A stretch of DNA of 64,000 nt from Leptothermofonsia sichuanensis E412. Lineage in GTDB: Bacteria; Cyanobacteriota; Cyanobacteriia; Leptolyngbyales; Leptolyngbyaceae. The notes under the pieces are model-generated. The model was not told the DNA's origin and did no database searches. It was given only the letters and a program-made list of their open reading frames with translations. This document shows, in pieces, positions 5,925 through 62,848 of this stretch (position 1 is the first letter of the stretch; each line of letters starts with the position of its first letter). The position numbers were made by a program, and so were the translations under genes. The DNA lies in assembly GCF_019891175.1 (NCBI RefSeq), contig NZ_CP072600.1:4278001-4342000 (forward strand). Direction: 5' to 3'.

Positions 5925-6409
5925 GGTTCTGTCCTCGCTGAATGCATCAAATATTTAATTTCCTGCAGGGCGGTTGCAACCCCCTGAGTTGCAACGGGCG
6001 AAAGCCCCTCTCCCAGGTCAAAATTCACTCCAGGTACCATGACCCACCACCCCTGGGGACAGTTGGCATAGAGAGCCTGGGTGATTGCCAGTAAAACCTG
6101 CGGTGCGCACCAGTGACCGGATGGAGTTCCAGATTCAGCAGGCTCCAGGGCACATACTTGAAGGTCCTGTTCCAGGGTGGCCGGATAGGCATCGATAAAA
6201 ATAACCAGGTTAACACTCGCCAGCGATTCAGCCAGTTCAGGGGTGAGCTGGTGAACGGCGATCGCCTCTACATCTGGCATCCCCCAACCTGCCACTTCCC
6301 TGGCAACCTGCGGGCCTATCCCATCGTCACTGCGGAGGGGATTCCCATAACCAATGACCAGAATCGATCGGCGCAGGCTTTTGAGGCAGGCAGCTAAGTG
6401 GCAATCCAT
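5906..6409 (-). CDS. hoxW: Hydrogenase maturation protease (HoxW/HupW type)
   Basis: A 167-residue member of the HyaD/HycI endopeptidase family, which trims the C-terminus of the hydrogenase large subunit after metal insertion. Diagnostic blocks are VIGYGNPLRSDDGIG (residues 18-32), HQLTPELAESLASVN and VIFIDAYPA; the acidic residues in the first and third blocks and a His between them are the nickel-sensing positions in this family. The WWVMVPGVNFDLGEGLSP region also fits. It is the first gene of a pair with hypA, overlapping by 19 bp. Whether it serves the bidirectional (HoxW) or uptake (HupW) enzyme cannot be settled without the large-subunit gene, so the symbol is tentative. The true start may lie a few codons downstream. 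Confidence 0.85.
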   Translation of the reverse strand: MDCHLAACLKSLRRSILVIGYGNPLRSDDGIGPQVAREVAGWGMPDVEAIAVHQLTPELAESLASVNLVIFIDAYPATLEQDLQVCALEPAESGTPSGHWCAPQVLLAITQALYANCPQGWWVMVPGVNFDLGEGLSPVATQGVATALQEIKYLMHSARTEPCTKLG

Positions 6410-6471
6410 ACTATCCTGGCGCTATACGCTCAACCTGTTGGCTTCATCTAGAGATTAGAAAAACAATTTGA

Positions 6472-6972
6472 GGAACTTGTGAGGACACGGGACGGTCTGA
6501 GATTGGTATCAAGCATTACTGCTTTGACCCCTCCCTGGCTCCGGCAGGAAAGTCTGTTCTGATTGTGACGCTAACCACAAACTATGACTACTGGCAACGC
6601 ATCTATGGGCGATCGATGTATGCTGCTGAACAGATCCAGGAAGCCAACCTGCTGATTAATCTTCTGGAGCAGTTGTTACCTGGAATTAAGGCTGATATTG
6701 AGTTTGTTGATGTGGCGACTCCCCTGACCTATGAACGGTACACAGGCAACTGGCAGGGATCCAGTTGCGGCTGGCTACTGACTAAGCAGACTCTGCCGCT
6801 GATGATTAGAGGCTTACCTAAAACTCTACCTGGACTACGAAACTTCTACATGATTGGGCAGTGGGTTGAACCAGGGGGGAGTGTTCCTGTCGTGGCAATG
6901 TCTGGACGGAATATCATCCAGCAAATTTGTCATGAAGATCGGCGATTGTTTTGCGCAAGTCCCATTTCATAA
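6472..6972 (+). pseudogene. C-terminal fragment of a phytoene-desaturase/CrtO-like FAD oxidoreductase
   Basis: The frame is open from 6472 and reads HYCFDPSLAPAGKSVLIV, then YDYWQRIYG, then NFYMIGQWVEPGGSVPVVAMSG, the C-terminal third of cyanobacterial phytoene-dehydrogenase-like flavoproteins; the last block is the FAD-contacting C-terminal motif. The N-terminal dinucleotide-binding domain (GxGxxG) is missing: a stop lies at 6469-6471 and no upstream sequence before the protease gene resembles it. Only about 165 of some 500 residues remain, so this is a remnant. A GTG at 6565 could start a shorter reading, but such a product would lack half the FAD fold. Confidence 0.8.
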
Positions 6973-7045
6973 ACCACGTCTACGGTGGACATCCCTCCAC
7001 CTATTCCAGACTCACAACTGCAACACTGACAAACCACTGGTGGAT

Positions 7046-7145
7046 TGCGGCAGAAGTTTTTCACCACGAAGACACAAAGGAACACAAAGTTTCTTAGTGC
7101 GCTTAGTGTCTTTGTGGTTCAAACAAAACTGGCGGGTTATTTTCA
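7046..7145 (-). repeat. Palindromic element B, empty copy without an inserted A
   Basis: On the minus strand it runs AAAATAACCCGCCAGTTTT, TTGAACCACAAAGACACTAAG, GCGCACTAAGAAAC, then CTTCGTGGTGAAAAACTTCTGCCGC. The two inner halves are inverted copies of a CCACAAAGACAC block. It is the same unit as at 50326 and 63510, but here the GCGCACTAAGAAAC junction is uninterrupted, so it represents the ancestral empty site. Confidence 0.8.
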
Positions 7146-7155
7146 AAAACCTGCA

Positions 7156-8310
7156 CTAGGAATTGGCAATCACCTTTGCGGCGGCAGTCACCCCAGATCC
7201 TGGGGTAAAGTTTTCGTAGCCTAATTCTTGCAGGGTAGCTTCCAGAGCTGCGATCGCAGAGAGAATATCGCGATCGCTGACAAACCCCAGGTGTCCAATC
7301 CGAAAAATCTTGCCCTTGAGATGGTCCTGTCCCCCTGCCAGGGCAATGTCAAACCGTTTTTTCATGACCGAGCGGATCTGTTCAGCCTGGACCTGCTCTG
7401 GAGCAACGGCAGTAATTGCCGTGCTGGCAGCGTCGTCAGCAGCAAACAACGGTAATCCCAGGGCTTTAATGGCAGCGCGAGTAGCCTGGGTCAGGCGTAG
7501 ATGCCGGGCAAAAATGCTCTCCAATCCCTCAGCTTTCATCATACGCAGAGCAGCTTGCAGAGCAAAAAACAGGTTGACAGGTGGGGTAAATGGTGTGGTG
7601 TTTTTGGCGGCGTCCTTTTTATACTTGCCCAGATCCAGATAGAACCGGGGCAGTTTCGCGGTTTCATAAGCCTTCCAGGCTTTGGGACTGACAGCTACAA
7701 AGCCCAGTCCTGGAGGAATCATATAGCCTTTTTGAGAGCCAGAAGCAACGACATCCAATCCCCACTCATCAACGGGTACATTGTAAGCCCCCAGACTGGT
7801 CACCGTATCAACTATAATCAGCGCTTCACCATGCGCTTTAACATATCGATTAATTGTCTCCAGGTCGTTTAAGACGCCAGTTGAAGTCTCGCTATGGGTG
7901 ACAATAACGGCTTTAATCAACTTTTCCCTATCCGCCTCCAGGCTGGTACGGAATTGTTCCGGATCGAGGGCGTGTCCCCACTCTGCCGAAATCACCTCGG
8001 TCTGAACTCCGTAGGCTTTGCAGACCTGCGCCCAGCGATCGCCAAACTTCCCGTTGCTCCCCACCAGAACGCGATCGCCAGGACTGAGAAAGTTGATGAT
8101 GCCAGCCTCCATAGCACCCGTACCACTGGCAGTCAGGATCAGTAAATCATTTTGAGTCTGGTGAAGCCATTTCAGGTCTTGGGTCACCTCTTCCATCAGA
8201 GTTGAGAAATCACCACTCCGGTGGCCTATCGGGTGCTTTGCCATTGCCAGCAAAACCTGCTCTGGTACAGGCGTTGGACCAGGAATCATCAGCATCAGCT
8301 TATCGTCCAT
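7156..8310 (-). CDS. Class V PLP-dependent aminotransferase, alanine/serine-glyoxylate type
   Basis: A 384-residue fold-type I aminotransferase likely to use glyoxylate as acceptor in photorespiratory glycine formation. It starts MLMIPGPTPVP, has VIVTHSETSTG, the PLP-binding IIVDTVTSLGAY, and the Schiff-base lysine K194 in ASGSQKGYM. Length and domain layout match the serine/alanine-glyoxylate family. Cyanobacterial homologues were historically called the small subunit of soluble hydrogenase (42 kDa), a name generally regarded as mistaken; its position near hyp genes here should not revive it. Amino-donor preference (serine or alanine) is not decidable from sequence. Transcribed alone. Confidence 0.88.
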   Translation of the reverse strand: MDDKLMLMIPGPTPVPEQVLLAMAKHPIGHRSGDFSTLMEEVTQDLKWLHQTQNDLLILTASGTGAMEAGIINFLSPGDRVLVGSNGKFGDRWAQVCKAYGVQTEVISAEWGHALDPEQFRTSLEADREKLIKAVIVTHSETSTGVLNDLETINRYVKAHGEALIIVDTVTSLGAYNVPVDEWGLDVVASGSQKGYMIPPGLGFVAVSPKAWKAYETAKLPRFYLDLGKYKKDAAKNTTPFTPPVNLFFALQAALRMMKAEGLESIFARHLRLTQATRAAIKALGLPLFAADDAASTAITAVAPEQVQAEQIRSVMKKRFDIALAGGQDHLKGKIFRIGHLGFVSDRDILSAIAALEATLQELGYENFTPGSGVTAAAKVIANS

Positions 8311-8540
8311 TTGTCAGCCCCTTGTCTTTAAGAAAATTCCCTTTCAATTGTGCACGATCCAGGATTATACCGATTTAGCCAGAGGATGAGGCAGATACCT
8401 GATTCAACCTTTTGCGCCGCAGGACTTCTACAATCTAAAATCCCAAATCTAGATTCCAAAATCGAGAATGGTACTACATAATTTCCCCAGGATCGTCGAT
8501 CAACGTAAACCGAAAAATGTAACATTCTACCCCAGAATTA

Positions 8541-8605
8541 CAGAGGCATCGCTCCGTGTTCTCTGTGCCTCTGTGGTGAAGGTTCTGGTTATAAAATCTT
8601 CATTC
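8541..8605. repeat. Palindromic repeat E
   Basis: CTCCGTGTTCTCTGTGCCTCTGTGGTGAAG followed by TTATAAAATCTTCATTCC just beyond the 3' end of the coiled-coil gene. The CACCACAGAGGCACAGAGAA core recurs at 10197, 17562, 26830, 28090, 37228, 44790 and 50293. Confidence 0.6.
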
Positions 8606-10021
8606 CTATGATCGTCTGTTCTTATAACTACGCCGCCGCATCAAGAACTCTGGTAAATCGACCCTGGCGTGGGCAGGGCTGACAGAGGTAAGGTGAGCGG
8701 GGCTGGCAGGTTCAGGAATGCCACCTGTGGATGCCTGCATGACAGCCAGTAACTCGGTAAGCTCGGCAGGGGGATTGGGCAACAGGTATTCCAGCAGTTC
8801 TTTGAGGCGCTGTACCCGGTTCTGGGTATTGACATAGCGATCTTTCCAGTGCTGAACAGCCGTTTCATATTCACTGGCCTGTTGCGCCTGCCGTAAAATC
8901 TGCTCCTGCATTTCATGGGTCTGACGTTCCAACTCACAGGCGCGAGACAACTGCCGCTCCCGGTCTTCTTCCAGTTCCTGACAGGCCTGCTGAAGCATTG
9001 CTTGAGTGGTCTGTTGTCGGGCAATTTCGGCTTCCAGTTCTTCAACCTTTGCCTGCACGATCGCCAGCGTGCCCTCCAGGGCAACTTTTCCTTTTGCCTG
9101 ACGGGAATTGTGGGTAGATTGGGGGGGATCCACAATCAGGGTGGGTTGATTTTCCAGATGCCGGCGTGCCTGGTTCAGTTCAGTGGTGAGTAGTTCCAGG
9201 CTGGACTGACGCTCCGCCAGAGTTTGGGTCAGGCTTTCTACCTGGGCCTCTGCCCGCCCTAGCTGAATTTCCAGTTCACCGACCCGCACCCTGGCCGCCA
9301 GGGCCTCTGCCTCTAACTCTAAAACGCGCTGCTGCTGAACACGGAATCCATGTTGATAGTCTGCCAGTTGTTTTTCTAAAGACTGCTGATAAATTTGTCC
9401 TTCGGCGCGATCGCGGGCCAACTGGCTGTGCAGATTTCCCAATTCTGTCTGCTGCGTCTGGGTCAGAGTTTCCATCATGATCAGCAGTTCTTGCAGGGTG
9501 CGATCGCGCTCCTGGCTATCTGTTTTCTGGGAATCCAGGGCTTCTTGCTGTTCTGCCAGTTGCCGTTTGAGGCGCACAATTGCCTGCTGCTGAATATTCG
9601 CAATTTCCTCTGTAGAAGCCAGTTGCGTCTCCAGAAATTGCTGGTCAATCATCTGATGCCGCAGTTCCTTAAGGCACGCCTGGGACTGATCCAGTGCCTG
9701 CTCCAGGTGTCGGATCCGCTCAACCTGACTGTGGGACAGGGACCGTGCCTGCACTAACTCTGCCAGCAAGTTACCCTGCTCGCTTTCCCACAACTGACGC
9801 TGGCGTTTAATTTCTCTGGCAGCCTGCTGTTTTAAGTCCTGAATGATTGCCTGCATTTCGGGATCACACCGATCCAGATTGAGTGGCAACGGAAAATCGC
9901 AGCTAAGGTCCAGTTGTTCATCCGTCTGGGGAGCGATCGCTACATCCACAGCAATCCCTTCGTCAGAGTAACTGCCATTCTCTACCGAGCGGGGATCATG
10001 AAGGATGTTCGGCTCAGACAC
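8606..10021 (-). CDS. Long coiled-coil protein of unknown function
   Basis: A 471-residue protein. Residues about 60-400 are almost wholly heptad-rich and Gln/Glu/Leu-rich (for example LKQQAAREIKRQRQLW, LARDRAEGQIYQQSLEKQL, VEELEAEIARQQ), predicting a long coiled coil. The N-terminus (about 55 residues) is acidic and probably disordered; the C-terminus is a Pro-rich linker ending in a basic tail (LMRRRSYKNRRS). No membrane segment, signal peptide or enzymatic motif is visible. A structural or scaffold role is likely, but I do not recognise the family. Ordinary codon usage; no clear operon partner. Confidence 0.75.
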   Translation of the reverse strand: MSEPNILHDPRSVENGSYSDEGIAVDVAIAPQTDEQLDLSCDFPLPLNLDRCDPEMQAIIQDLKQQAAREIKRQRQLWESEQGNLLAELVQARSLSHSQVERIRHLEQALDQSQACLKELRHQMIDQQFLETQLASTEEIANIQQQAIVRLKRQLAEQQEALDSQKTDSQERDRTLQELLIMMETLTQTQQTELGNLHSQLARDRAEGQIYQQSLEKQLADYQHGFRVQQQRVLELEAEALAARVRVGELEIQLGRAEAQVESLTQTLAERQSSLELLTTELNQARRHLENQPTLIVDPPQSTHNSRQAKGKVALEGTLAIVQAKVEELEAEIARQQTTQAMLQQACQELEEDRERQLSRACELERQTHEMQEQILRQAQQASEYETAVQHWKDRYVNTQNRVQRLKELLEYLLPNPPAELTELLAVMQASTGGIPEPASPAHLTSVSPAHARVDLPEFLMRRRSYKNRRS

Positions 10022-10185
10022 TCAGGACCTCCCGAAATGCTGGCTGGGATCTGCATTTCACTATCAGCCTCGATCTACATTAATAGACTCAGCGACGAAA
10101 TGCCGATATTGTAAATTAACTCTACCCAAAAATAGTTTTCAATTTTAGGAATGTGGAGATGAGTTAAGGAATCAGGATTTCATAA

Positions 10186-10295
10186 CCTGAACCTTCACCA
10201 CAGAGACACGGAGGGCACAGAGGAATTTCTCTACGCTGTCTGTGCCGCTGTGGTAGGATCCTAAGGTTTTCGATTTATTGAATCAACGATCCTGA
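10186..10295. repeat. Palindromic repeat E, long copy
   Basis: CACCACAGAGACACGGAGGG pairs with CTGTGCCGCTGTGGTAGG around AATTTCTCTACG; flanked by AACCTGAA on one side and TTGAATCAACGATCCTGAAG on the other. It lies between the coiled-coil gene's promoter and the 3' end of the next minus-strand gene. Confidence 0.6.
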
Positions 10296-58052: not shown

Positions 58053-59393
58053 CTAAGCCGCTGGTTCTGATTCGGGTGATGGTTCAGCGATCGCAGCCAT
58101 ATCTGGCAAGGGTTCAATCAACGCCTCTGGGGCGGGCATATCCTCTCCGGCTGAGAACTCAGCGTCGGGTTCAGCCATTGTTCCCGGATCAGAATCTGCC
58201 ATTGGCTCATCTGCAACGGGGTCTGTTTGATTGGCTGGAGTTGGAGCAGCTTCGGAAGTTGTGGTTTCCCTGAGGAAATGGGGTTGGAATTCTGGGTGGG
58301 ATGGCAGTTTCTCACCCGCAACGGCTGGTGCCAGCTCATCCTTGGCGGTTGCAGGTTTAATCTCTTTTTTGTCCTTATAAATCTCTGACAGTGCCTCACG
58401 CATCTCCTGGAGCCAGCCTGCATTTTCGGTTTGTAACACTGCCTCAGTGCCACTCACCAGGGTTTCCACACTTGCCCGCTGTCTCCGGGTTTCTGGAGAC
58501 AGCGCATGCCACCAGATGCGGATATCGTAAAGGTCAGCGGCCGATAAATTACAGGCAACAATCGTTGCCTCAATTCGCTTAAACTCCAGGTAACTGGCAA
58601 ATGCAACCGCCAGGGCATTGCTGACCGCCAGCCAGACATTGAGGTTAACGGCTGCCAGCAGAGCACCCACACCACCCAATAAAATAATCAATGCCTGAAA
58701 TCGGCGCAGTTCTTTGCCCAGTCGGGCCACTTTCTTCTGATAATAGTTGAACTGGTTTTCCAGCCGCCATTTCAAATATTGTTCAGCCGTCATATCGTCA
58801 AAGCCATTGTCCTCCTCTGGGGTACCGGAACGGGGAGGCAGATCTCCTTTGTAGGCTTGCAGGTCCGTCTGGTTCACTGATGTCTCCATCAGGCGTCTGC
58901 TAATGACTTTCAGTTTCTTGGCCAATCGGACATCTCGTGTTTCCGTGGAGCGTGTCTCTGAGGGGTTGTATTCATCCACCTGCATCCGATACCGATAAAT
59001 CTCTTTTTTGATGGCCTCAGCACTGCTTCTCAGCATGACCCAGCTAATGCCCATTTTGAACTTTTCAGAAAAGGCAACCAGCACGGTCACGATAATCGGG
59101 ACGGCAATGACCAGGACATGGAAACCATCTAAAAATTGTTGCTTACTCAACCAACTGCCCAGCCAACCAGGAAATACGATGGTATCCGGCTTAAGATACT
59201 GCTCCAGCGTTGAGTACAAAATTGCCAGGGTGGTGGCGGCAACTCCCAAAATTAAAATCCACTTACGTTGCTGGACAAAGCGTCGTTGGGCAATGACCGC
59301 ATTTTTGTCATAGGTGGCAAATCGCAACCAGGCATCTTCCAGAATCTGGTTGCGGAGAGGAGAGGTGACAGCAATCAATTCGTTAGTAGACAT
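58053..59393 (-). CDS. Membrane protein with two SLATT/DUF4231-like modules
   Basis: A 446-residue protein from the ATG at 59391-59393, preceded by GGGAG. Hydrophobic segments: about 45-61, 91-109, 233-249 and 252-268, forming two 2TM hairpins; each is preceded by a helical region with a basic YY/RR stretch (IAQRRFVQQRKWIL; NYYQKKVARLGKELRR), as in the DUF4231/SLATT fold. The middle (110-230) is a charged coiled coil and the C-terminal 100 residues are Pro/Glu/Ala-rich, disordered. SLATT proteins are proposed pore-forming effectors or channels coupled to SLOG or SMODS sensors (Burroughs and colleagues, from memory). It is third gene of an operon; 13 bp separate it from the SLOG gene. Confidence 0.85.
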   Translation of the reverse strand: MSTNELIAVTSPLRNQILEDAWLRFATYDKNAVIAQRRFVQQRKWILILGVAATTLAILYSTLEQYLKPDTIVFPGWLGSWLSKQQFLDGFHVLVIAVPIIVTVLVAFSEKFKMGISWVMLRSSAEAIKKEIYRYRMQVDEYNPSETRSTETRDVRLAKKLKVISRRLMETSVNQTDLQAYKGDLPPRSGTPEEDNGFDDMTAEQYLKWRLENQFNYYQKKVARLGKELRRFQALIILLGGVGALLAAVNLNVWLAVSNALAVAFASYLEFKRIEATIVACNLSAADLYDIRIWWHALSPETRRQRASVETLVSGTEAVLQTENAGWLQEMREALSEIYKDKKEIKPATAKDELAPAVAGEKLPSHPEFQPHFLRETTTSEAAPTPANQTDPVADEPMADSDPGTMAEPDAEFSAGEDMPAPEALIEPLPDMAAIAEPSPESEPAA

Positions 59394-59406
59394 TCCAGGC
59401 TCCCAA

Positions 59407-60150
59407 TTATGGTTCACGTGCAAAGATTTCTTCAATCATCTGAGTCAGGGTTTTGGATCCGGTTTCCAGATCGATCGCCCTGACCAGTCCAGAGGCAACA
59501 ATCGCTTTTGCCCGCTCGTCAGTAGTTTCTCCTTGCAGTGCAGTTGCCAGCACATCGGCTGTGCGACCGCTTCCGGCAACCACAATCAGCGATCGCTCCG
59601 ACTGCACACTTTGGGAGGCATCCAGCCAGGAAACCTCACCGCCATTAATCAGGATGGTGACAGAGTCATCGGCATCAGTCAGAGTACTGGCAAAATCGGC
59701 AATCCAGCTTGATTCATCGCCCCAGGTAGAACCGGGAACCAGAATGAAATGACTGTGGTTTGGTTCCAGAGCAGCCGCATCAGCAGAGGGAGCGGTCTGT
59801 TCTGGCAGGATAGCTAATCCGACGGGAATGACCCCTACCAGTGGAAAACTGCCGCTGACTTCCAGACGCGCCTGTCCCATGAGCCGCATCACCCCAGCAT
59901 CCGTTCCACCATCAATGACCGTTGCCTGCCATTTTTGCGCCAGGGGAGCCAGAACCTCAATAAACAAGCGGCGAACCCGGTTAAAATCTTCCTGACTCAG
60001 TTTGCTGGCACCGCCAATTACCACCAGAACTGGCCGCTGACGAGCAAGCCCCATGTCTTGCATCAACTGCTCCAGGTCAACGGAGGGGTCAACGTAAACG
60101 ACCGTTGCGCTCGCCCCGCTGGGAAAGGTGATGGTAAAGGGTTTTTCCAT
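59407..60150 (-). CDS. TRPM-like SLOG (LSDAT) nucleotide-sensor protein
   Basis: 247 residues from the ATG at 60148-60150. The sequence resembles the N-terminal homology region of animal TRPM channels: PVLVVIGGASKLS (40-52), ATVIDGGTDAGVMRLMGQA (77-95, the Gly-rich SLOG loop), LVGVIPVGL, then LEPNHSHFILVPGSTWGDES (128-146), and VTILINGGE with SLIVVAGSGRTADVLA (187-202, cf. VVxGSGRaAD in TRPM). SLOG domains bind nucleotides or nucleotide derivatives such as ADP-ribose; TRPM2 does so. No membrane segment of its own. It lies between the NAD(P)HX-repair gene (43 bp upstream) and the SLATT gene (13 bp downstream), implying a sensor-effector pair. Ligand unknown. Confidence 0.85.
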   Translation of the reverse strand: MEKPFTITFPSGASATVVYVDPSVDLEQLMQDMGLARQRPVLVVIGGASKLSQEDFNRVRRLFIEVLAPLAQKWQATVIDGGTDAGVMRLMGQARLEVSGSFPLVGVIPVGLAILPEQTAPSADAAALEPNHSHFILVPGSTWGDESSWIADFASTLTDADDSVTILINGGEVSWLDASQSVQSERSLIVVAGSGRTADVLATALQGETTDERAKAIVASGLVRAIDLETGSKTLTQMIEEIFAREP

Positions 60151-60193
60151 GAAAAGAATCTTACTGGCGGGATAGCGGAGCAGCAACAAAAAC

Positions 60194-61756
60194 TTAACGG
60201 GAGGCAATAATTTTTCGCAGCGTTGGAACCAGGTAATGGGTCAGGGTGAAGGCATCCACTCCCAGGGTAGTTCTGTCCTCTGCGGCCTGAATGCCTGCCA
60301 GAGAATGCCACCAGGCTGCCGCAGCAACCACTTCAAGCAACGGGCTGTCAGGGGATGCCTGTGCCAGCAACCCACCCAGTAACCCGGTCAAGACATCTCC
60401 ACTGCCGCCGCGAGCCAGAGCTGGCGTGCTGTGGGGGTTAATCCGGGTCGCCCCACCGGGAGCGGAGATCGCGATGCGTGCCCCCTTTAATAGAACAATT
60501 GCCCCACTCTGGGATGCTGCCCTTTGAGTGGCCGTGACCCGGCAGGTCATCGCTGCTCCCAGGTCTGGAAACAGCCGCCTGAACTCACCCAGATGGGGAG
60601 TCAAAACCGTTGGGGCCTGGCGTGCATGCAACGTGGGCATTGTTCCCTGCGCCGCCAGAAGATTCAGACCATCTGCATCCAGCACCAGGGGGCGATCGCC
60701 TGCCAGCACTGCCATCACCGCGGCGGTGGCTTCCATTGTCAAACCGGGACCACAGGCAATCGCCTGGTATGCATCAAAATCGAGGCCATGGGGTAACCGG
60801 GCGATCGCCCCTGTCTCTGTCTCTGGGCAGTCCAGTATCAGGGCTTCAGGAATTTGTGCGGTCATAATTGGCTTCAGCGAGGCGGGGACAGCCATTGACA
60901 GCATTCCCACCCCACTGGCGCGGGCACCCAGCCCGGTCAACAGCGCTCCACCAGCGTAACGCCGGGAGCCACAAATCACCAGTAAATGCCCCATTTTGTA
61001 TTTATGGGTTGCAGGGGGACGGTGCAGTGGCAGATGGGCGATCGCGGCTTCAGGAGTGATTCGCTGCCAGTCAGGGGCTTCCCCCACCACGGCCTGAATG
61101 TCTGCCAGCGGTAGACCAAAATCAATCAATTCGGCCCTGCCCACATAGTCCAGTGCGGGGTCCTGCAATAATCCCAGCTTCCATAACCCCAGGCAGAGGG
61201 TATGGGTAGCGCAGATCGCTGTTCCCAGAACCGTGCCAGTATCCGTGTGTAACCCTGACGGCACATCAATGCTGACTACTGGCGACGACCATTGATTGAC
61301 CTGATTGATGGCATCGGCAATGGCATCGGACAGCGATCGCTCCAGCCCAAACCCAAATAGCCCATCAATCAGCCAGTCACAACCCCGCAAATTCTCTACT
61401 GTTTCAACAAAAGGAATTCCCAGGCTGCCACAGAACTGCCGATGCTGCCCGGTCAACTCCTTCAGGCGCGAAAATGGGCAGTAAGCCAATACCTCATACC
61501 CACTGAGATGCAGTTCCCGTGCAACAACCAGCGCATCTCCGCCATTGTGCCCTGGTCCAACCAGTACCCCTACCCGCCGTCCCGTGGTGTCGGGATACAG
61601 GGTCTTCACCCGCTGAAAAATCAGACCTGCCACCTTCTCCATCAAGGCAGCCACAGGCATCCCGGCGGCAAATACCCGTTCTTCAATCTGCCGCATCTGG
61701 TCAGCAGTAACAACAAACTGCTGAATCCGGTCACTGCCCTGGTCAGTCACACTCAC
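60194..61756 (-). CDS. nnr: Bifunctional NAD(P)H-hydrate epimerase/dehydratase
   Basis: Repairs hydrated NAD(P)H (NAD(P)HX) formed by heat or GAPDH side reaction. 520 residues. N-terminal YjeF_N epimerase (about 1-215): VGVLVGPGHNGGDALVVARE, CDWLIDGLFGFGLERS and VVSIDVPSGLHTDTGTV. C-terminal ADP-dependent dehydratase (ribokinase-like, about 230-510): GHLLVICGSRRYAGGALLTG, LDADGLNLL, TVLTPHLGEFRRLFPD, KGARIAISAPGG and ALARGGSGDVLTGLLGGLLA (nucleotide loop). Start is GTG at 61756; GTG at 61750 or a later ATG are alternatives. First gene of the operon with SLOG and SLATT genes. Confidence 0.94.
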   Translation of the reverse strand: MSVTDQGSDRIQQFVVTADQMRQIEERVFAAGMPVAALMEKVAGLIFQRVKTLYPDTTGRRVGVLVGPGHNGGDALVVARELHLSGYEVLAYCPFSRLKELTGQHRQFCGSLGIPFVETVENLRGCDWLIDGLFGFGLERSLSDAIADAINQVNQWSSPVVSIDVPSGLHTDTGTVLGTAICATHTLCLGLWKLGLLQDPALDYVGRAELIDFGLPLADIQAVVGEAPDWQRITPEAAIAHLPLHRPPATHKYKMGHLLVICGSRRYAGGALLTGLGARASGVGMLSMAVPASLKPIMTAQIPEALILDCPETETGAIARLPHGLDFDAYQAIACGPGLTMEATAAVMAVLAGDRPLVLDADGLNLLAAQGTMPTLHARQAPTVLTPHLGEFRRLFPDLGAAMTCRVTATQRAASQSGAIVLLKGARIAISAPGGATRINPHSTPALARGGSGDVLTGLLGGLLAQASPDSPLLEVVAAAAWWHSLAGIQAAEDRTTLGVDAFTLTHYLVPTLRKIIASR

Positions 61757-61973
61757 TGTTGCTGCAAGCCATCAATGATATTGAAATCATATTGAAACCA
61801 CAGGCGACGAACCCTGAAGATGAAAACGCAGTAGGCGAAAGTCACATTCTCCAACTTCCGCCTATGCGTATGTTCTGTAGGAAACCGGACAAAGCTGATG
61901 ATGAGAGGTGAGAAAGAGAAAGCTTGCAACTCTCTTCTTTCTCAGAAAGCTCCTAAAACCCGAAAACCTTTTC

Positions 61974-62001
61974 TCCTCACTCCTCACTCCTCACTCCTCA
62001 C
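61974..62001. repeat. Heptameric tandem repeat TCCTCAC x4
   Basis: Four exact copies of TCCTCAC, just downstream of the SPOR protein's stop codon, followed by diverged TCCTCCT. Typical cyanobacterial short tandem repeat. Confidence 0.8.
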
Positions 62002-62013
62002 TCCTCCTACTCC

Positions 62014-62754
62014 TCATCGACTATAAAACACACGCGAGTCCATCCCTCCCCGACGGAGATACTGGTCAACTTCCTTAGCTTCGTTATAGTCCTTAAAGGG
62101 ACCGATTTCCAGATGCCAGCCACGGGGAGCATCTTTCATCTGCATCGCTTCCTGGCGAATACCCAGGCGCATTGCCTGTTGTAACAGGTTAGGCAGTTCC
62201 GCCTGGGCACCTGGAATAACAATGAGATAAGGGCTGGACTGGCTGGCAGTGGGCGGGTAGGACACATTATTGTAACCAAGCTCTGCCGTAATTCCTTGCA
62301 TCCGTAGAGCCTCAATCCGCTGCCGGGCACTGGCTTCATCGCTATAGGTTCCGACCTGAATCACCGATCGCCCCTGGTATTGCTGGACAAAAGCCCCAGA
62401 TTCTATGGTTTGCACCTGTTGCAGCAGATAGGGGCTGTCTCCATTCACGTAGACCACATAGCTGGCGGCACTCCGCTGGGAATCAACTGGAGCCTGGAAA
62501 ATTGCCTCTCGCGGCAGGGACGGAGAAGCGGAGGGGGCTTGAGGAACTGGAACAGGCGGTGGGGGCGGGATCATGGACGGTTGATCCCAAAGGTCCTGGG
62601 TATACCCGCCTGTAGTAGTCAAAACGAGTGTTGCGATCGCCAGCCCGACGGCAAGCCCGACCCGCCTGACACTCGCCTGATTTTTCCCCTGGAACCCGAT
62701 GCTGGCAGGCAATCCCATCTCTGGATCACCTTGATGCTGCCGATGAACCGTCAT
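62014..62754 (-). CDS. SPOR domain protein
   Basis: A 246-residue protein from the ATG at 62752-62754 with GGGAGGGG upstream. A membrane or signal segment (VGLAVGLAIATLVLTTTGG, about 30-50), a Pro-rich linker (PPPPPVPVPQ), then two SPOR-like halves: FVQQYQGRSVIQVGTYSDEASARQRIEALR and WHLEIGPFKDYNEAKEVDQYL. SPOR domains bind denuded glycan strands at septa in other bacteria, suggesting a cell-wall or septal role. Confidence 0.82.
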   Translation of the reverse strand: MTVHRQHQGDPEMGLPASIGFQGKNQASVRRVGLAVGLAIATLVLTTTGGYTQDLWDQPSMIPPPPPVPVPQAPSASPSLPREAIFQAPVDSQRSAASYVVYVNGDSPYLLQQVQTIESGAFVQQYQGRSVIQVGTYSDEASARQRIEALRMQGITAELGYNNVSYPPTASQSSPYLIVIPGAQAELPNLLQQAMRLGIRQEAMQMKDAPRGWHLEIGPFKDYNEAKEVDQYLRRGGMDSRVFYSR

Positions 62755-62848
62755 GATGAAAACCCCTCCCGGTTTCACTTTGCTGCAAGCCATGTTACAC
62801 GCGGAATTGGCGATGGCACGTCAATTTTTTGGAGAGAGGAGTAGAAAC

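Follow-up and report, generated by a model that had tools for sequence, protein, structure and literature searches.

Does a cyanobacterial sensor-effector pair, set directly behind a gene for NAD(P)HX repair, respond to a nucleotide derived from NAD(P)? The question is raised by three genes on the minus strand of a 64,000-nt window (the whole stretch of DNA analysed) of Leptothermofonsia sichuanensis E412 (NZ_CP072600.1, GCF_019891175.1, positions 4,278,001-4,342,000). Between window positions 58053 and 61756, a bifunctional nnr gene is followed by an LSDAT/SLOG gene and by a gene for a two-module SLATT protein. LSDAT domains are prokaryotic relatives of the TRPM sensor; no report of a ligand of bacterial LSDAT domains was found in the literature searched. 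We propose that LSDAT and SLATT form a sensor of NAD(P)-derived nucleotides that controls a membrane effector, with nnr setting the ligand or protecting the cofactors, a reading whose merits and difficulties we find evenly balanced.

Gene order and transcription

The initial annotation had described three minus-strand genes with gaps of 43 and 13 bp, and these distances (nnr to LSDAT and LSDAT to SLATT, respectively) are borne out with the likely starts ATG 60150 and ATG 59393. The open reading frames span 60194-61756, 59407-60207 and 58053-59435, that of LSDAT being also readable from TTG 60207. The products are Nnr (60194..61756, 520 aa), an LSDAT_prok protein of the TRPM-type SLOG kind (59407..60150, 247 aa from ATG) and a double-SLATT membrane protein (58053..59393, 446 aa from ATG). 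Nnr carries both expected Pfam domains, Carb_kinase (1.3e-56) for the dehydratase and YjeF_N (1.6e-40) for the epimerase, scores above the NCBIfam cut-off for TIGR00196 and TIGR00197 and contains GGSGD and GPGHNGGD stretches; it is assigned by these matches as a bifunctional NAD(P)H-hydrate epimerase/dehydratase.

We infer shared transcription of the three genes, which probably form one transcription unit. A promoter and terminator scan found no terminator-like sites between them, and overall such promoter- and terminator-like sites were not in excess compared with shuffled sequence. A weak promoter-like match (59435-59406) lies immediately 5' of the SLATT start and could indicate separate transcription of SLATT. 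On the other side of the trio, 5' of nnr, a minus-strand gene for a SPOR-domain protein (62014..62793, SPOR 1.4e-05) belongs to the nnr neighbourhood and stands outside the sensor-effector pair. It likewise precedes nnr in two loci of family f5 (L158 and L167), and the SPOR label is found in 6 of 20 nnr loci that have no adjacent LSDAT.

Recurrence of the pair and of nnr in cyanobacteria

SLATT had been put forward as the partner of the SLOG protein, and the genomic neighbourhoods agree with this. A SLATT-family gene lies within 700 bp on the same strand at 81 of the 155 full-length cyanobacterial LSDAT genes, although in the host genome DUF4231 and SLATT_1 each score above the cut-off only once, both times in the present SLATT protein (a second SLATT_1 match falls under it). 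The remaining 74 genes have no recognised SLATT at this distance, some of them on contigs that end nearby. The count leaves out eight ORFs that were too short or too long (L070, L071 twice, L072, L216 twice, L218 and L219), and two loci (L220 and L221) have no LSDAT ORF. Both parts are furthermore joined in single-chain LSDAT-DUF4231-SLATT_1 proteins on plasmids of two other phyla, from Hymenobacter tibetensis and Ca. Chlorohelix; these are the two examined out of four plasmid records with LSDAT, the other two being from Embleya. LSDAT-SLATT pairing is widespread and a known kind of sensor-effector pair.

The link to nnr is rarer. The gene is present in 16 of the 162 fetched loci, upstream and codirectional in all 16, and lies within 700 bp upstream on the same strand of 15 of the 155 LSDAT genes; the other 140 lack it there (some contigs end nearby). 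We interpret this as one recurrent context of LSDAT genes and not as a defining part. The earlier proposal of an nnr link is borne out in that the link recurs in three cyanobacterial families and is no one-off; a general feature of LSDAT genes it is not. Three of the 15 nnr-linked LSDATs (L073, L161 and L183) have no SLATT neighbour.

Among 140 LSDATs (duplicates L003, L161 and L184 omitted, and 23 later-fetched loci absent), nnr is the commonest upstream family, with 15 of 84 codirectional upstream neighbours in 41 families. The nnr-linked LSDATs of this set are not a single clade (AU p 9e-56), and nnr sequences cluster by host family in a tree whose unlinked members included none from f5 or f11. 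These two patterns together indicate that the same gene, nnr, precedes different LSDATs in the three families. A single mobile nnr-LSDAT cassette is thought unlikely, as linked nnr genes of family f1 cluster with unlinked f1 nnr genes and the linked LSDATs form no clade. Alternatively, an old nnr-LSDAT linkage may have been followed by many losses and by replacement of the LSDAT. What is new here is the repeated placement of LSDAT-SLATT behind nnr in separate cyanobacterial lineages, as a clue to the ligand; no report of an nnr-LSDAT link was found among the literature matches listed, as far as their accessible text goes.

The pair is accessory, given that most LSDATs have no nnr link and that in two close relatives (G034 and G037) it is absent at the nnr site while nnr retains the same distal neighbour. 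Such presence or absence beside a retained nnr, and the use of the same place by different LSDAT clades, would also fit a genuine sensor-effector for which nnr, as a housekeeping gene with steady expression, is merely a handy upstream promoter that serves accessory cassettes, with a ligand possibly not related to NAD. We regard this as a possible but doubtful alternative. It is favoured by a locus in which two further genes intervene between nnr and LSDAT (L051) and by two in which an alpha-amylase or alpha/beta-hydrolase gene follows LSDAT (L183 and L004). However, other steadily expressed genes would then be expected upstream equally often, whereas nnr tops the 41 families, and no other recurrent cassette is obvious downstream of nnr in the 20 loci of the order without adjacent LSDAT, where the downstream genes look varied (by inspection, with no formal count).

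The LSDAT protein and the TRPM sensor

The assignment of the sensor proposed here is supported by sequence and fold. In Pfam the protein matches LSDAT_prok (3.3e-67, 226 bits against a cut-off of 25.4) and LSDAT_euk (1.1e-14, 54.9 against 25.7), and profile comparison with TRPM gives 1.2e-19. The two TRPM-type motif blocks reported initially, NHSHFILV and a second one, are both present. The TRPM-type SLOG fold claimed at the same time is supported by the AlphaFold model (pLDDT 88.2): its best 50 structural matches, with Z 19.4-22.4 across 230-245 residues, are almost all TRPM chains. The highest-ranked match, a ciliary chain, goes by the name cation channel family protein; Nematostella TRPM2 reaches Z 22.1, and human TRPM2 with ADPR (6pur) aligns over the entire model (244 residues, Z 19.6, rmsd 3.0). 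The predicted fold is accordingly MHR1/2-like.

In TRPM2 the ADPR site is contacted by R358, Y295 and R302, according to the accessible text of PMC6759353. The R358 position is Arg in 62 of 62 aligned LSDATs and the Y295 position is Trp in 61, so that an aromatic is kept; this conservation would fit a sensor of NAD(P)-derived nucleotides. The R302 position differs, being I, L or M in 61 of 62, and its Arg is not conserved.

The residue D177, acidic (D/E) in 61 of the 62, may point to LSDAT as an enzyme. Together with the GGTxxG loop of the protein it is located at what we take to be the catalytic positions of LOG by motif comparison. LSDAT would on this view be a nucleotide N-glycosidase of the LOG type, producing or removing the signal to which SLATT responds. 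This seems to us improbable, since the second LOG motif, presumably PGGxGT, reads NGGEVSW, and TRPM, a ligand-binding domain, is nearest by sequence and fold, even though the SLOG clades comprise enzymes as well as sensors in the accessible portion of PMC9503650.

The likeness to TRPM2 as a sensor does not make the locus a TRPM channel. The three proteins have no Pfam match to a TRP pore or ion channel and none to ankyrin (MHR3/4) or Nudix (NUDT9-H) at E up to 1; the six-helix TRP pore is absent, and the four hydrophobic segments sit in the SLATT protein, a two-module effector on a separate chain. The statement that TRPM joins the same elements in one chain is not supported in that form, as TRPM fuses MHR1/2 to the TRP pore and not to SLATT. 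As one-chain counterparts, the bacterial LSDAT-DUF4231-SLATT_1 proteins come closer.

The predicted SLATT effector and the proposed mechanism

The SLATT protein matches DUF4231 at 41-162 (6.4e-10, 39.8 against a cut-off of 24.7) and SLATT_1 at 220-341 (9.6e-22, 77.7 against 26.3) in Pfam, numbered on the 460-aa TTG reading, and NCBIfam NF033634 SLATT_1 (3.3e-27); SLATT_3 scores 23.4, under its cut-off of 26.3, and the module at 41-162 is classed as DUF4231/SLATT_3-like. Two 2TM hairpins and an acidic tail had been described. Hydropathy of the 446-aa ATG reading agrees with a hairpin per module, with hydrophobic segments at 45-63, 90-108, 235-253 and 253-271, and the tail (340-446) is mildly acidic and proline/alanine-rich (24 D/E, 7 K/R, 18 P, 20 A). 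AlphaFold modelling, with two sequences, was unsuccessful (pLDDT 39.5).

In Thoeris, the SLOG domain of ThsA, presumably of another SLOG clade than LSDAT, senses an NAD-derived cADPR isomer and acts on an effector. This tie of SLOG sensing to an effector (compare PMC10022894) would be shared by the present locus; the TIR signal generator is missing from the three locus proteins and from ten further window proteins (both direct neighbours included). In DRT10, on the accessible text of PMC12632851, phage defence needs a SLATT protein proposed as membrane effector, which argues for such a role here, but in DRT10 it is a reverse transcriptase and an ncRNA, and not an LSDAT sensor, that SLATT is paired with. 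Also among the closest known systems are the LSDAT (PF18171) and SLATT families of Burroughs et al. 2015 (as described in PMC13143021 and PMC7159879), with sensor and effector families identical to the pair. That work predicted SLATT to be an effector that responds to nucleotides and forms pores, so the effector role is already in print as a prediction; an nnr link, which distinguishes this locus, was not seen among the literature matches listed.

A role of the locus in abortive infection against phages, comparable to Thoeris or DRT10 and unconnected with the neighbouring nnr, is very improbable. In its favour are the requirement for SLATT in DRT10, another LSDAT locus (L124) whose SLATT_1 protein bears a TPR-S sensor domain, and the differing presence of the pair between close relatives; against it, PADLOC had no match for the three locus proteins and the ten others, a domain scan found the latter to be mostly housekeeping types without TIR or other signal maker, and LSDAT had no match in phage and viral collections. 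A search for SLATT in the viral collection likewise yielded nothing.

For the ligand, a direct LSDAT-SLATT contact, pore activity and a role of Nnr, this is what we infer. The LSDAT and SLATT genes would encode a two-part signalling device, in which the soluble LSDAT, with the clamshell architecture of TRPM2 MHR1/2, binds a diphosphate-bridged nucleotide. The ligand would most likely derive from NAD(P), for instance ADP-ribose or a related compound, or NAD(P)H in damaged form. Its binding would be relayed to the double-SLATT protein and alter membrane permeability, while Nnr, by repairing NAD(P)HX, would set the ligand level or guard cofactor pools during the action of the device. This device is suggested by the match of LSDAT to TRPM in profile and fold, by SLATT neighbours and one-chain proteins, and, for nnr, by its first rank upstream of LSDATs that are not a single clade while nnr follows the host family. 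We count against it the LSDATs without nnr or SLATT, those with nnr and no SLATT, the R302 position, D177, the promoter-like match and the poor SLATT model. A more specific version, a cofactor-damage alarm in which LSDAT reads NAD(P)HX or a closely similar NAD(P) breakdown product, SLATT alters the membrane upon its accumulation and Nnr clears it, with TRPM-type sensors wired to the NAD-repair gene by cyanobacteria several times and partly independently, we consider rather unlikely.

The recurrence of nnr ahead of various LSDATs suggests a short list of candidate ligands, NAD(P)HX, ADP-ribose and their kin, and renders the ligand question of bacterial LSDATs directly testable. If the proposed reading is true, cofactor damage would be tied to membrane control, and bacteria would possess two-chain and one-chain counterparts of the TRPM sensor part.

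Three-gene locus and predicted fold of the sensor

The single 6.43 Mb contig of the Leptothermofonsia sichuanensis E412 genome carries on the minus strand, in this order, nnr (60194-61756), LSDAT (59407-60150) and SLATT (58053-59393), with intergenic gaps of 43 and 13 bp, and from this spacing we infer shared transcription. Coordinates, gaps and domain matches bear out the arrangement proposed in the initial annotation: both repair domains were matched in nnr, LSDAT_prok (3.3e-67) and the eukaryotic TRPM family (1.1e-14) in LSDAT, and a DUF4231/SLATT_3-like plus a SLATT_1 module in SLATT, whose product has four hydrophobic segments and a mildly acidic tail rich in P and A. Among the named relatives found, the closest, a Leptolyngbyaceae MAG (L003), possesses the same three genes. 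Promoter- and terminator-like sites at the locus are in no excess over shuffles; one weak promoter-like match lies immediately before SLATT. A 7-base tandem repeat of about six copies (61973-62016) separates nnr from a SPOR gene. Ten further proteins of the window include SPOR, solute-binding, porin and metabolic types and one without match, and none of the ten gave a defence match.

TRPM chains were the first matches of a profile of 62 LSDATs (1.2e-19). The AlphaFold model of LSDAT (7 sequences, pLDDT 88.2) aligns along its length with the TRPM ligand domain MHR1/2, with Z 22.1 and rmsd 2.8 over 233 residues for Nematostella TRPM2, and Z 19.6 and rmsd 3.0 over 244 residues for human TRPM2 with ADP-ribose. 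The SLOG fold claimed at the outset is thus predicted here as well, and the comparison with TRPM holds for the sensor, by MHR1/2 fold and profile, but not beyond it.

According to an excerpt of PMC6759353, R358 and the start of helix 7 of TRPM2 contact the ADP-ribose phosphates, Y295 clamps the ligand and R302 contacts the ribose. The profile alignment places R358, Y295 and R302 at LSDAT R196, W143 and I150, where the 62 LSDATs have R (62/62), W (61/62) and I, L or M (61/62). Because character is kept at two of the three contacts and lost at one, a diphosphate nucleotide is a plausible ligand, and ADP-ribose itself a candidate. Position D177 is acidic in 61 of 62 LSDATs, so LSDAT may have an enzymatic role.

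LSDAT and its SLATT partners

LSDAT occurs in 28 of 42 genomes of the window organism's order, 102 of 388 drawn from the class, 25 of 339 drawn from the phylum, 49 of 291 in the order of genome G169 and 19 of 36 in family f5; outside cyanobacteria, matches were found in Thermotoga maritima and Anaerolineales. From cyanobacterial genomes 161 other LSDAT places were fetched, giving 162 loci with the window, in which 155 full-length genes were examined.

The proposed partnership with SLATT is supported, as 81 of the 155 genes have a codirectional SLATT or DUF4231 neighbour no more than 700 bp away (69 downstream, 15 upstream, three LSDATs being flanked on both sides). SLATT is the commonest downstream family (66/110 among 140 non-redundant LSDATs), and the only DUF4231 and SLATT_1 matches over cut-off in the window's genome, one each, both lie inside the SLATT gene at 58053-59393. 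Plasmids of Hymenobacter tibetensis (669 aa) and Ca. Chlorohelix (625 aa) encode LSDAT, DUF4231 and SLATT_1 in one chain, and in genome G015 a double SLATT shares its reading frame with the C-terminal half of an LSDAT whose N-terminal part lies in a different frame. The LSDAT sensor and its predicted SLATT effector belong together.

Other contexts were also observed. In L044 (genome G032, 5947-10255) nnr precedes LSDAT, and a DUF4231 gene separates this LSDAT from a second one of a different clade, so that two sensors surround one effector. A double-SLATT-profile protein of 1,053-1,088 aa lies upstream of LSDAT in L124 (1453-4680) and similarly in L120, L127 and L128; that of L124, the one scanned against Pfam, combines SLATT_1 with a TPR-S sensor domain. 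A DUF4231 protein encoded downstream of LSDAT in L068 (1577-3892) additionally has C39-like peptidase and chitinase-like domains. The second LSDAT of the window's genome (G000:C1:1982703-1983278; L053, 5944-6771) belongs to another clade, lacks a SLATT neighbour and adjoins a divergent PNP_UDP_1 nucleoside phosphorylase gene (scanned in L053, assigned by gene cluster in L057 and L064). In L041, L058, L059, L060 and L061 a gene of cluster c5, of GAF-histidine-kinase type as scanned in L041, precedes LSDAT by 8-28 bp, possibly another sensory context.

Recurrence and origin of the nnr link

The adjacency of nnr, from which a link to NAD metabolites had been proposed, recurs in relatives, upstream and codirectional within 700 bp in 15 of 155 LSDAT genes, the linked ones belonging to families f1, f5 and f11, but is absent from most. 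Chance would yield about 0.03 such neighbours among 155, given an estimated ~6,000 genes per genome and with related loci not independent. A sixteenth locus, L051, has two opposite-strand genes between nnr and LSDAT. Wherever nnr is present (16 of the 162 loci) it is upstream and codirectional, and it was found nowhere else around LSDAT in the ~3-14 kb examined per locus. Among the 140 non-redundant LSDATs it is the commonest upstream codirectional family (15 of 84 neighbours, 41 families), and its state changes nine times on the tree. The link is present in 8 of 42 genomes of f1, 7 of 36 of f5 and in G169 of f11 (G529, also f11, has an unlinked LSDAT), hence in at least two orders, since f1 is alone in its order.

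Constraining all 16 linked LSDATs to one clade on a quick tree lowers the log-likelihood by 215.8 units (AU p 8.9e-56), the group having been chosen after an earlier tree was viewed. A careful tree of 62 rows, built before the quick one, likewise scatters linked LSDATs over four positions. By contrast of markers, nnr genes cluster by family, with moderate support (92/84 for f5, 92/92 for its split from f1), linked f1 copies being interspersed with unlinked ones. Together the trees show nnr genes tracking their hosts, with different LSDATs behind them; either LSDATs were recruited repeatedly, or an ancient linkage was followed by losses and replacement. Within genus g18, nnr of G037 is directly followed by a TPR-kinase gene that elsewhere comes after SLATT, and the nnr site of G034 holds two extra genes, neither LSDAT nor SLATT, which marks the LSDAT-SLATT pair as accessory. 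Of the order's nnr loci, 20 that lack an adjacent LSDAT were inspected by eye, and their downstream genes look varied.

Place among known systems

The kinship of bacterial LSDAT with TRPM MHR1/2, and the prediction that SLATT forms a nucleotide-responsive pore, reportedly date from Burroughs et al. (2015). Their predictions are followed here through excerpts of PMC13143021, PMC7159879 and PMC9503650, and DRT10 phage defence requires SLATT according to part of PMC12632851. Among the matches listed, in a literature partially covered, no paper on the nnr-LSDAT link was found. In the best reading LSDAT would sense an NAD(P)-derived nucleotide and control the predicted SLATT membrane effector, with nnr acting as a recurrent partner of the pair. 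The sensor and effector families are already known.
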